Assembly: GCA_017431625.1 (NCBI GenBank)
Contig: JAFRKQ010000027.1
Location: 1-46,780 of the forward strand
DNA: 46,780 nt
Reading direction: 5' to 3'
Source of the DNA: a bacterium
GTDB taxonomy: Bacteria; Patescibacteriota; Microgenomatia; UBA1400; PJMF01
Shown: one piece after another, positions 7,208 to 11,931 of the stretch
Position numbering within the stretch: position 1 is the first letter of the stretch
Layout of the letters: each line of letters opens with the position of its first letter
Position numbers and translations under genes: made by a program
The notes under the pieces: model-generated
What the model saw: only the letters and a program-made list of their open reading frames with translations
What the model was told of the DNA's origin: nothing
Database searches by the model: none

Positions 7208-8902
7208 TTATTGTAGCAAATTACGTCCTGTCATGGCTGGCGGCTGGGGAATGCCCATGAGCGATAACATGGTGGGGGCAATATCGGCCAAAACGCCATT
7301 GGGCAGAGTCCGTGATTGATTGAAAAACTTTGGCGAGATGACAATAAAAGGTACCGGGAAAGTGGAGTGTTCAGTGTCCATATTGCCCGTATTCATATCA
7401 ATCATCTCCTCTACGTTGCCGTGATCGGCGGTGATAATTAAATTACCACCTTTTTGGTAGACAGCTTTGGCGATGCGCCCCACACATTCATCAACAACTT
7501 CGCAAGCTTTGATGCCGGCTTGCAGATTGCCGGTGTGACCCACCATATCACCATTGGCAATATTAATCACAATCACATCGTAGTCACTATTTTTGATCCG
7601 CTCACAAACCTCATCGGTGATTTCATAAGCACTCATCTCAGGCACGAGGTCATAAGAACGTTCGCCCTTGGATGGCAAAATTACGCGATCCTCACCAGGA
7701 TAGATAAACTCTTTTTGACCATTCATGTAGTAGGTAACAAAGCGTTCTTTTTCGGTTTCACTCACCCGCAGCTGTTTGAGGCCGGTATCGGCAAAAATCC
7801 GACCAATCGGTTGTTTGACTGGTTGGGGCGGGAAGGCTTCGGCCACGGGCAAATTATCTTCGTAGCGAGTCATGGTTACAAAGTACAAATTTTGTAAGAA
7901 ACGTTTGCGCGGGAAAGCCACAGAAGTTTGTGATTGGTGAAGATTGGTTTTTTCGTACTTTTCCGCGTACGGATCGAAGCTAACTTTTTGCTCGCCAAAT
8001 TCTTTTAGGACAAAAGCGCGCGTGAGTTCGCGGGGGCGATCAATCCGATAGTTGGTAAAAATCACCGCATCATTATCATTGATAGTGATCAGATTGCCAT
8101 TGACATCAAGAATATTGGTGGGAGTAATAAATTCATCAGTATTGCCTTTTTGGTGTTCGAGGTTGATAGCAGCAAAAGGATCATTGGCTTTCTCACCAAT
8201 ACCACTGGTAAGACAATCATAAGCGGCCTCAACTCGATCCCAACGCAAATCGCGATCCATCGCGTAGAAGCGTCCCATAAGTGAGACAATTTCGCCCAAA
8301 CCCACCTCTTGACATTTGTTAAGCACAGTCTGAACAATGTCGGGTGATTGATAGGGTGGCGAATCACGGCCATCGGTAAAAAGATGTAAGTAAAGCCGGG
8401 GAACATCATTAGCGGCCGCCATTTCGATTAGTTTGAGCATGTGTTGGAGATTGGCGTGCACACCGCCGCTACCAGCCAAACCCATGATGTGGAGAGCAGA
8501 ATTATTTTTTTTGGCGTGGTCAAAAGCTTTGAGGAAAACTTCATTATGTTGAAAACTACCGTCATTAATTGACATATTTACCCGGGGCAAGTCTTGATAG
8601 ACAATATTACCAGCACCAATATTGACATGTCCAGTTTCGCTATTGCCATCCTCGCCCTTGGGCAAGCCGACCGCTTCGCCAGAAGCTGCTAGTTGAGCAT
8701 GAGGAAAAGACAGCCAAAAAAGATCCATGTTGGGAGTTTTGCCCAAGGAAATCGCATTGCCGGCATTATTGGGACCAATACCCCAACCGTCGAGAATCAG
8801 CAAAACTGTCAGTGGTCCGCTATAAGGCTTGCGCGGTGACTCGGGAGTGAAATCCTTCCCCGAAATCATTGGTTGAATAATATGTTTGTTACCAAATGGC
8901 AT
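7208..8902 (-). CDS. gpmI: 2,3-bisphosphoglycerate-independent phosphoglycerate mutase
   Basis: 564 residues. Interconverts 3- and 2-phosphoglycerate using two metal ions (typically Mn2+) in lower glycolysis. Visible family motifs are LLILDGWG near residue 35, GNSETGHVNIGAG with the catalytic Ser at about 88, GSGGVHANLQH, LHLFTDGRD, MGRFYAMDRD, the phosphatase-like metal-binding GDMVGHTGN and TADHGNVEEM, and a C-terminal EHSTFPVPFI. It is some 50 residues longer than the usual ~510, with about 25 extra residues at the N terminus. The start codon lies 1 nt after the stop of the enolase gene, so the two are one operon and likely coupled. It catalyses the step just before enolase. Confidence 0.95.
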   Translation of the reverse strand: MPFGNKHIIQPMISGKDFTPESPRKPYSGPLTVLLILDGWGIGPNNAGNAISLGKTPNMDLFWLSFPHAQLAASGEAVGLPKGEDGNSETGHVNIGAGNIVYQDLPRVNMSINDGSFQHNEVFLKAFDHAKKNNSALHIMGLAGSGGVHANLQHMLKLIEMAAANDVPRLYLHLFTDGRDSPPYQSPDIVQTVLNKCQEVGLGEIVSLMGRFYAMDRDLRWDRVEAAYDCLTSGIGEKANDPFAAINLEHQKGNTDEFITPTNILDVNGNLITINDNDAVIFTNYRIDRPRELTRAFVLKEFGEQKVSFDPYAEKYEKTNLHQSQTSVAFPRKRFLQNLYFVTMTRYEDNLPVAEAFPPQPVKQPIGRIFADTGLKQLRVSETEKERFVTYYMNGQKEFIYPGEDRVILPSKGERSYDLVPEMSAYEITDEVCERIKNSDYDVIVINIANGDMVGHTGNLQAGIKACEVVDECVGRIAKAVYQKGGNLIITADHGNVEEMIDMNTGNMDTEHSTFPVPFIVISPKFFNQSRTLPNGVLADIAPTMLSLMGIPQPPAMTGRNLLQ

Positions 8903-8903
8903 A

Positions 8904-10205
8904 TTAACCTTGTGTGTTTTGATTTATCAACTGCAGCTCATTATTAATCTGCAAGAGACGATTGTATTTAATGATCCGTTCACCACGATTGGGTGGGCCA
9001 AATTTGACAAACTCAGCTCCCAGACCTACGCCTAAATCAGCAATCAAATCATCATTGGTTTCGCCTTCGCGATTGGCCACCACGATTTGCCAATTGGCCG
9101 AGCGAGCTTGCTTGACCGCGGCAATTAAATCGGTGATAGTGGGTACTTGTCCGGTTTTGACAATCAAGGTGTTGCCGATCTTTTCTTTAATTGCGCCAGC
9201 AGTCAGTTTCACATCAGTACGAGTCATAGAATCAGAAACTACCCGGGCCGCTTTGTCAAATTCATTGGTGAATTCACGCCAAGAACCAAGATCGGAACTG
9301 GCGAAAGGATCCTCAAAAGAGTAGAGGGCGTAGTTTTTATTGAGATCGCGCAAGTAACCAATCCATTGTTTGTTGGACATAGCCTCAGTATTGTCTTTGA
9401 TTTTGTAGCGATTGACAGAATAAAAACTATCGGCGTTAAAATCAGCACCAAAAAAGATGTCACGTCCGATTACTAGTCCAATGCTGCGCGCGGCCTCAGA
9501 CATAAGGTCAAAAGCATCGGTGTTTTTGTAGAGATTGGGAGTATAACCCCCATTGGGACCCACTGATCGGATTGCTCCTTTTGACTTGAGCAAATCGCCC
9601 AAAGCCTTAAAAAGCGAGACAGCAATCTCGAGGGAGCGCTGAAAATTGAGGTGATTGGCCGGGATAATCTGAAATTCTTGGAAGTCAAGATTGTCAGTGC
9701 CATGTTTGCCACCATCAATCAAGCCATAAATACAAGTGGGCACGGCTAGGACACTCGTGAGTGCGTAGCGCTTGAATATATAATAGTATGGTGGCCAACC
9801 ATAAGACAAAGCGGCGGCCTTAAGCACTGCTTGTGAAACCACCATGGTGGTATTGGCACCAATATTTTCCAGAGTTTTGGAGGTGTCCAATCCCAAAAGC
9901 AAAGTATCAATATTCTCCTGATCAATAGGATTCTTGCCGACTAGACGACCAGCAATCTGGGTGTTAATGATATTAACTGCTTTAGTTACACCCATGCCTA
10001 GCATCCGATCGGGATCACGATCACGCAATTCATGATAGCCAACACCACCGCTAAGATTGGCGGTAGAAACACTGGTCACTACCATCACACCATTACTCAA
10101 GGTGAGCGAACATTCGATGGTGGGCACACCGCGTGAATCAAGAATCTCACGCGCAATCAAGCTAGTTATTGTTGTACTGTTATTTTCTGCTGTCAAAATT
10201 GCCAT
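8904..10205 (-). CDS. eno: divergent enolase / enolase-like protein
   Basis: 433 residues from the ATG at 10205. It aligns along its whole length with enolase: REILDSRGVPTIE at the N terminus, GGKHGTDNLDFQEF, GGYTPN, SFEDPF, VKTGQ, GETNDD and VKFG. Metal ligands appear kept (Asp255, Glu298, Asp325), as do Glu177, Lys350 and Lys401. However, the flexible catalytic loop normally reading SGASTG is replaced by STANLSGG. The GDEGGYAPN motif reads GPNGGYTPN, so the catalytic Glu (yeast Glu211) is Asn218. The SHRSGET His (yeast His373) is Asn378. Coupling to gpmI argues for a glycolytic role, but activity is uncertain. Promoter: TTGCTT-17-TAAAAT, 7 nt before the ATG. Confidence 0.85.
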   Translation of the reverse strand: MAILTAENNSTTITSLIAREILDSRGVPTIECSLTLSNGVMVVTSVSTANLSGGVGYHELRDRDPDRMLGMGVTKAVNIINTQIAGRLVGKNPIDQENIDTLLLGLDTSKTLENIGANTTMVVSQAVLKAAALSYGWPPYYYIFKRYALTSVLAVPTCIYGLIDGGKHGTDNLDFQEFQIIPANHLNFQRSLEIAVSLFKALGDLLKSKGAIRSVGPNGGYTPNLYKNTDAFDLMSEAARSIGLVIGRDIFFGADFNADSFYSVNRYKIKDNTEAMSNKQWIGYLRDLNKNYALYSFEDPFASSDLGSWREFTNEFDKAARVVSDSMTRTDVKLTAGAIKEKIGNTLIVKTGQVPTITDLIAAVKQARSANWQIVVANREGETNDDLIADLGVGLGAEFVKFGPPNRGERIIKYNRLLQINNELQLINQNTQG

Positions 10206-10314: not shown

Positions 10315-11931
10315 ATGAAAGCAGCGAAAAAGCCATGGAGTGTACGTTTGCTTGAACACTTGGCTAATAACTGGTTGTATGATGTGATCGGCTTGGTGGT
10401 GATTGTTTATCTGGCCAATCGCTTGTATCGGCTGACAAATATCCCGGTATTTGCCGATGAAGCAATTTATATTTATTGGGCACAGTTGGCAGCTTCTGAT
10501 TGGGGTCGCTACGCTTTTGCTAGCATGAACGACGGCAAGACACCACTGATCATTTGGCTAATGATCCCGCTACTCAAACTTCTTCGTGATCCGTTGGTGG
10601 CAGGGAGGCTTTTGAGTGTTATGTTTGGCTTGGGTCAGATGATTGTGGCCGGTGTTTTTACTGCTGTTTTCACTGACAAAAAACGTTATCATTTCTTAGC
10701 GGCCATCTTGGTGATTTTTTGTCGTGGACTCATGCTCAATAATCGTCTGGCACTTATGGACTCGGCTTCTGGCTTTTTGGTCATGTTGACATATGTGTGT
10801 GCTTTTGTCGGTGCCTTGGGTCTATCACTGGGACGAGAAGAGAAAGCGGCTGACCTGCAACATCGAGGTTGGTGGTGGTTGGCTTTAGGTAGTCTCAGTT
10901 TTGGACTGGCTTTGTGGGTGAAGTTTTCCAATTTATTGATTTTGCCGATGCTGGCGACCATTTTTTTGTTTGATGATCGGCTGGGAGATTATTGGCGCCA
11001 GCGACAATGGCGCGCTTTAGCCCGGGCTTGCGGTTGGACACTAGTTGGCCTGGGTACCATTGTCATCATCGGTGGCAGTCTTTTTGCTACCCTCAAACTC
11101 AGCGCGTCATTTCCGGGAATTTTTCGTCGTGGCGGTGATTTTCTTTATACTCTCAGTGAGTTTAGCGATCGACCCGTGGAGATCATGCTTGGCAACTGGC
11201 GATTTTTTTGGCAAGTGCTGACTAATTACGGTGGCATCATCATGGTGATGGCCACGATTATTTTGGCAGCGATCGAGTTTTTGGGCCCCAAACAACGCGA
11301 GGTCGTTTGGATTTTACTTGCAGCCTTAGCCTACGCTTTGCCGATTATTCTTTTTGGAAAGGTGGTTTATCCACGTTATTATCTACCAGTCATTCCTTTT
11401 GTAATCGTGGCTTTTTGTATTAGCTTGGCCAATATCCAAACGGCAGCTCTTTTTAATTTTAAGACTGCTTTAATTATTCTGGTCATAGGTGCAGGTATGT
11501 ACAATTGTTGGCGACTTCATACTCTGCCGCATCAAGCGGGTCTGCTGCCGGCCGATCAAGAACAGCTTTTTCAGGAGTGGTCATCTGGTCATGGTATTAA
11601 ACAAACAGCACAGTTTCTGGCTCGCAAAGCCCGCCATCATCGGCTTTTGGTAATGACCGAAGGACATATCGGGACTTTACCTGATGGCTTGCAAATTTAT
11701 TTGTGGAAGGCGCAGGAACGTAATAATATGCGCATTGTGGGATTGGGGACACCACCAGTGAAAAATTATGGCGAGTTTGCTCGTGAATTTGCCGACTATG
11801 ATCAGGTGTGGTTGGTAGTTAATTCGCATCGGTTGGAGCTTGAGCCAGAAGCGAGTGCAGGCGCTTTAATCAAGGAATATGCTCGTCCAGGTCGAGGGGC
11901 TCCAAGTCTTCAAGTTTGGCAGATCAAATAA
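10315..11931 (+). CDS. GT-C glycosyltransferase, PMT/ArnT-like
   Basis: 538 residues with about 10-12 membrane spans. The first loop carries PVFADEAIYIYWAQ, where the DE pair sits at the place of the catalytic acidic residues of PMT/ArnT-type transferases, and NDGKTPL, another hallmark of this family. The C-terminal ~130 residues are soluble and probably face outside. The enzyme is expected to move a sugar from a polyprenyl-phosphate carrier to a protein or lipid at the outer membrane face. The GT2 enzyme at 26100 could supply such a carrier-linked sugar (inference). A leaderless start at 10315 is supported by a TATAAT 7 nt upstream. Confidence 0.8.
   Translation: MKAAKKPWSVRLLEHLANNWLYDVIGLVVIVYLANRLYRLTNIPVFADEAIYIYWAQLAASDWGRYAFASMNDGKTPLIIWLMIPLLKLLRDPLVAGRLLSVMFGLGQMIVAGVFTAVFTDKKRYHFLAAILVIFCRGLMLNNRLALMDSASGFLVMLTYVCAFVGALGLSLGREEKAADLQHRGWWWLALGSLSFGLALWVKFSNLLILPMLATIFLFDDRLGDYWRQRQWRALARACGWTLVGLGTIVIIGGSLFATLKLSASFPGIFRRGGDFLYTLSEFSDRPVEIMLGNWRFFWQVLTNYGGIIMVMATIILAAIEFLGPKQREVVWILLAALAYALPIILFGKVVYPRYYLPVIPFVIVAFCISLANIQTAALFNFKTALIILVIGAGMYNCWRLHTLPHQAGLLPADQEQLFQEWSSGHGIKQTAQFLARKARHHRLLVMTEGHIGTLPDGLQIYLWKAQERNNMRIVGLGTPPVKNYGEFAREFADYDQVWLVVNSHRLELEPEASAGALIKEYARPGRGAPSLQVWQIK

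Follow-up and report, generated by a model that had tools for sequence, protein, structure and literature searches.

Does the enolase-like gene of this Microgenomatia contig encode a working glycolytic enzyme, or has it taken on another role? The window analyzed here is the whole stretch of 46,780 nucleotides (contig JAFRKQ010000027.1 of assembly GCA_017431625.1), and the gene lies on its reverse strand next to gpmI. The preliminary description of this locus left two alternatives. That is, either the active site of enolase has been reworked in this lineage, or the protein has another role and a second enolase is present elsewhere in the genome. The features that bear on this question are as follows; all residue assignments are from alignment.

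8904..10205, minus strand: degenerate native enolase of 433 amino acids with an ATG start, predicted to be non-catalytic (sequence alignment and predicted model)
10047..10064, minus strand: TANLSG, which replaces catalytic loop 1, SGASTG (yeast Ser39); the model is locally of low confidence
9552..9554, minus strand: codon of Asn218, which replaces the catalytic Glu (yeast Glu211; E. coli Glu209 counting Met1)
9441..9443, minus strand: codon of Asp255, metal ligand kept (E. coli Asp246)
9312..9314, minus strand: codon of Glu298, metal ligand kept (E. coli Glu290)
9231..9233, minus strand: codon of Asp325, metal ligand kept (E. coli Asp317); the next residue, equivalent to Asp318, is Ser
9156..9158, minus strand: codon of Lys350, catalytic-base lysine kept (E. 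coli Lys342)
9072..9074, minus strand: codon of Asn378, which replaces His (E. coli His370; yeast His373)
9003..9005, minus strand: codon of Lys401, active-site and substrate lysine kept (E. coli Lys393)
7208..8902, minus strand: gpmI, cofactor-independent phosphoglycerate mutase of 564 amino acids with intact catalytic motifs, beginning one base past the enolase stop
8908..8911, minus strand: AAGG, putative gpmI ribosome-binding site within the end of the enolase gene, about 5 bases upstream of the gpmI start

We compared the motifs of the window enolase with those of E. coli enolase, and the alignment ran without gaps across the motifs. The preliminary description had reported that the metal ligands and the catalytic Lys are kept, that Asn218 and Asn378 stand in place of Glu and His, and that the SGASTG loop is replaced; the alignment bears out each of these points to the residue. 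GDEGGY is GPNGGY in the window enolase, with Pro in place of the Asp before Asn218, and SHRSGET is ANREGET, with Ala for the Ser before Asn378 and Glu for the later Ser. Two further changes were found beyond those listed earlier, namely GDDLFVTN to SDSMTRTD, by which Asp318 is gone, and NQIG to GQVP. His168 and Glu177 are kept. That is, the protein possesses all three carboxylate metal ligands and both lysines of a competent enolase and lacks the catalytic Glu, the loop 1 Ser and the His373 equivalent. Judging from these residues, the window enolase is predicted not to dehydrate 2-phosphoglycerate, and the kept lysines and metal ligands may allow a weak or altered catalysis.

The relation of the protein to enolase is evident from both Pfam domains, the NCBIfam enolase model and the structural comparison. 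Enolase_N and Enolase_C matched the full-length protein with 113.6 and 205.7 bits, and TIGR01060 accepted it as a true enolase at 345 bits, its cut-off being 300. The predicted model had a pLDDT of 90.4 and a TM-score of 0.92 to E. coli enolase, the replaced loop 1 being of low confidence. The fold is thus predicted to be intact and that of a normal enolase, and an essential catalytic residue is gone from it.

The TIGR01060 score would suit an enolase whose active site has been reworked. The change of His alone would also be tolerable, given that yeast His373Asn retains about 10% of the activity. The loss of Glu together with the loop 1 Ser and Asp318 argues against such an enzyme, as does the Glu204Ala mutant of M. 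tuberculosis enolase, which is non-functional: its activity is abolished and PEP binding remains (PMC10619443). Glu204 of that enzyme is equivalent to E. coli Glu209 through the GDEGG motif.

The genome of the window (1.14 Mb, 32 contigs, 96% complete) contains only one other enolase match, on contig C19. Every catalytic motif of this second enolase is intact, and a separate gpmI gene follows it. Therefore, the second alternative of the preliminary description, another role with a canonical enolase elsewhere, is supported, although the role itself is our inference.

The pairing with gpmI had been taken as the mark of a working glycolytic pair. This argument fails, because the canonical enolase elsewhere adjoins a gpmI of its own, and the window's pair is left over from an ancestral operon. 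The spacing of one base that had been reported was confirmed (TAA at 8906-8904, T, ATG at 8902-8900), and the literal fusion was not; the two genes lie side by side, and their translation is probably coupled. The catalytic motifs of the native gpmI were intact throughout the relatives examined. An obligate pairing of the degenerate enolase with the neighboring gpmI was rejected, since in many members no native gpmI lies beside the degenerate enolase. Some of the native gpmI frames carry apparent N-terminal extensions of about 70-190 residues with putative starts (L057:2627-4813, L064:3527-5611, L068:6323-8401). The divergent neighbor of the enolase in the window, at 10315-11931 on the plus strand, is a PMT-type (mannosyltransferase) membrane protein.

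The enolase loci were compared in 51 relatives and then in further family members. Genomes that were at least 90% complete were regarded as near-complete, and there were 32 of these in the family of the window. Two enolase homologues were present in 30 of the 32, one closed genome included, and the degenerate copy was present in 31, at full length unless the contig was broken. The two single-copy genomes are G057, which has the canonical copy only, and G054, which has the degenerate copy only. Because a foreign-type gpmI sits at a contig edge in G054, its canonical enolase probably lies in an assembly gap. We rejected the idea that the second enolase stems from contamination or misbinning, as the pair is found family-wide, including in the single-contig genome G004.

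In the tree, the native copies of the family (29 rows) formed one clade with a support of 100/100, and the canonical copies fell into at least two other clades (the SGASTG/IKTG type and the YGASAG/GNEGA type). From this ingroup tree, in which E. coli was the sole outside reference, we read in which direction and when the enolase was acquired.

Glu209 was lost in all 35 native copies of the family (29/29, and 6/6 more). Since every copy shares the loss, chance is excluded as its source. The replacing residues were of seven kinds, namely N, C, L, T, V, D and G. Whether the Asn substitutions are conserved in related genomes had been proposed as a check, and they are not: even G001, which belongs to the same genus as the window genome, has Cys where the window enolase has Asn218. 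The idea that Asn serves as a new catalytic residue kept across the family was thereby rejected. Of the 29 copies, 8 lack His370, 6 lack Asp317 and 4 lack Asp246; in other lineages of the family, Asn or Gln takes the place of the metal ligand Asp246, and Cys or Asn that of Asp317. Lys342 and Glu290 were invariant, and Lys393 was nearly so, with one Arg. With no residue fixed at the Glu position, metal ligands lost in some lineages and a canonical enolase in the same genome, the reworked active site that had been put forward as the first alternative is not upheld, and we think it very unlikely that the window protein is still an enolase.

The protein might instead be an enzyme with a new substrate, in which the lysines and metals of the superfamily are kept and the acid/base and loop residues are altered for another compound. 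The invariance of Lys342 and Glu290, the near invariance of Lys393 and the three metal ligands of the window copy are consistent with such an enzyme. However, nothing is conserved in place of Glu209 or His370. No more than three alignment columns are both conserved within the family and unlike functional enolases, and none of them is among the catalytic positions examined. Moreover, the native enolases of genus g5 (G005, G023, G052), in which metal ligands are lost (altered Asp246/Asp317), are still 86-89% identical to each other. A new substrate thus seems improbable to us.

In many relatives, the operon of the native enolase consists of the genes for phosphomannomutase (PMM), a bifunctional PGI/PMI, a PEP-synthase-like protein, enolase and gpmI, with lexA and a cobalamin adenosyltransferase gene next in line. 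In the sublineage of the window, eno-gpmI is split from the PMM-PGI/PMI operon. The T-S-H-A-A phosphohistidine loop is absent from the PEP-synthase-like protein wherever its gene adjoins a degenerate enolase of the family, and it is present beside intact native enolases. Beside the degenerate enolase, either this loop or the entire mobile domain is lost from a fast-evolving protein (L055:3600-5549, L043:2966-5137 and their equivalents in G012, G006 and others). The gene shows 24-78% identity between species and is absent in many genomes. By its sequence, then, the PEP-synthase-like neighbor of the degenerate enolase is clearly decaying. A domain search of the window's genome detected no PEP-binding domain of PEP synthase. 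Nearly all members of the family, on the other hand, have pyruvate kinase, and an intact PEP synthase is mostly absent. Since this is so, the lower end of glycolysis would appear to have been fitted out anew, and catalysis to have been lost from the former PEP synthase and enolase, in an order of events that we infer from these genes.

The decay of this neighbor raises the question of whether the degenerate enolase is also a functionless relic on its way to being lost. The state of the enolase itself points the other way. Between close relatives, the native enolase had pS values of 0.71-0.84, which are near saturation, against pN values of 0.08-0.26; numerical dN/dS was set aside where synonymous sites were saturated. 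The identities of the degenerate and the canonical copies were about equal in some pairs of genomes (0.87/0.86, 0.89/0.86 and 0.87/0.87), and the degenerate copy was less conserved in others (e.g., 0.70/0.76 and 0.63/0.78). It was far better conserved than the PEP-synthase-like neighbor (0.79 versus 0.41 in one example) and better than PGI/PMI of the same operon (0.68). That is, in a family with reduced genomes, purifying selection maintains a full-length enolase in 31 of the 32 near-complete members. Because the degenerate copy is conserved like the canonical one in some pairs and well above its operon neighbors, we disfavor the relic and give it very little credence. The strong purifying selection indicates, therefore, that the degenerate enolase still does something.

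One thing it could do is pair with the canonical enolase in mixed dimers, as a regulatory subunit. Enolases assemble into dimers or octamers, and one cell encodes both copies. However, the canonical copies of G006 and G053 are only 50% identical and their native copies 84%, and the corresponding values for G016 and G027 are 49% and 77%. Because the canonical lineage switches within genera while the native copy stays, fixed mixed dimers are unlikely, and we see only a slim chance for this role.

We consider it likely, on the above results, that the window enolase is a retained pseudoenzyme, which was displaced by an imported enolase and is kept for a non-catalytic role. The course of events may have been as follows. 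The gene would have started as the native enolase of the Microgenomates/'Ca. Pacebacteria' lineage. The ancestor of the family would then have acquired pyruvate kinase and a canonical enolase belonging to another lineage, the latter often along with a second gpmI; the native copy would thereby have been freed from glycolysis. As the sequences show, the native enolase has lost the Glu needed for dehydration, and in the sublineage of the window the His, the second Asp and loop 1 are gone as well. The job that remained may be one of binding or scaffolding through the enolase surface, akin to that of the enolases in RNA degradosomes. Members that possess the lysines and the metal ligands, the window copy included, may bind 2-phosphoglycerate or PEP without turnover. 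The kept role is probably protein or ligand binding; the constraint and the missing catalytic residue are the two observations that point to a scaffold. For the family as a whole, the chances seem to us about even that, once the replacement had been imported, the native enolase came to serve solely as a non-catalytic protein, with a partner or ligand of its own.

Several known systems resemble this protein in part. It shares with enolase (phosphopyruvate hydratase, EC 4.2.1.11; TIGR01060, PF03952/PF00113) the fold, the length, both Pfam domains, the metal ligands, both lysines and the operon with gpmI. It differs in lacking the catalytic Glu, the loop 1 Ser, the His373 equivalent and the second Asp, and in coexisting with a canonical enolase. 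Moonlighting enolases occur in RNA degradosomes, with RNase E in E. coli and with RNase Y in B. subtilis. These have the same fold and a non-catalytic job, but they remain active enzymes, and the likeness is one of analogy only. The enolase-like hypothetical protein PRK08350 / NF006223 is likewise related to enolase and set apart from it, with a weak N-terminal match; however, that model has 341 positions, and the window protein scored 51 bits against its cut-off of 624.

Pseudoenzymes in general are already known. Those that arise by gene displacement or duplication have also lost a catalytic residue and kept the fold and the constraint, whereas in this family it was apparently a homologue gained by horizontal transfer, and not a sister copy, that took the place of the active form. 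In the open-access literature, we found no description of a family-wide enolase pseudoenzyme that arose through displacement by an imported enolase. The portions of Jaffe et al. 2020 (PMC7304191) consulted describe CPR enolases as patchy and affected by transfer, and contain no degenerate enolase copy.

The family would offer a natural experiment that parts the catalysis of enolase from its moonlighting, in that the chemistry has been taken over and the old protein is kept under strong selection in reduced genomes. The degenerate enolases would also form a clean set for the search for a non-catalytic enolase partner. Since automatic annotation names such a protein phosphopyruvate hydratase, metabolic reconstructions of these bacteria would be misled, and so would enolase trees in which degenerate and canonical copies are mixed.

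Outside the family, the single native-type enolase in other families of the order keeps the Glu, with the exception of G048. In that genome (L114 / L142) a lone native enolase has GIGGGF, with Gly for Glu, and the adjacent PEP synthase is intact; either this is an early stage, or the assembly lacks the second enolase of that genome. In family f2, the native copies of G030 and G043 (L092, L106) have lost the His (Asn or Cys), a second enolase is present, and the PEP-synthase-like gene beside the native enolase is divergent. From its separate branch in the tree, the His loss in f2 is apparently an independent case, that is, a convergence.

C-terminal tails rich in P, T and A, of about 50-233 residues, were found on the native enolases of G002, G007, G009, G012, G013, G016, G018, G022 and G025. 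Such tails are rare in other enolases, and the window copy has none. Those of 136-233 residues are probably disordered (L045:5741-7684, L049:5345-7297, L082:4931-6751, L035:4820-6481, L076:4944-6641). In cells with genomes of about 1 Mb, these tails may point to a new binding or scaffolding system. The complete genome L148 (CP011212.1), which is titled 'candidate division TM6 bacterium GW2011_GWF2_28_16', clusters with the Pacebacteria-like family, and its title seems to be wrong.
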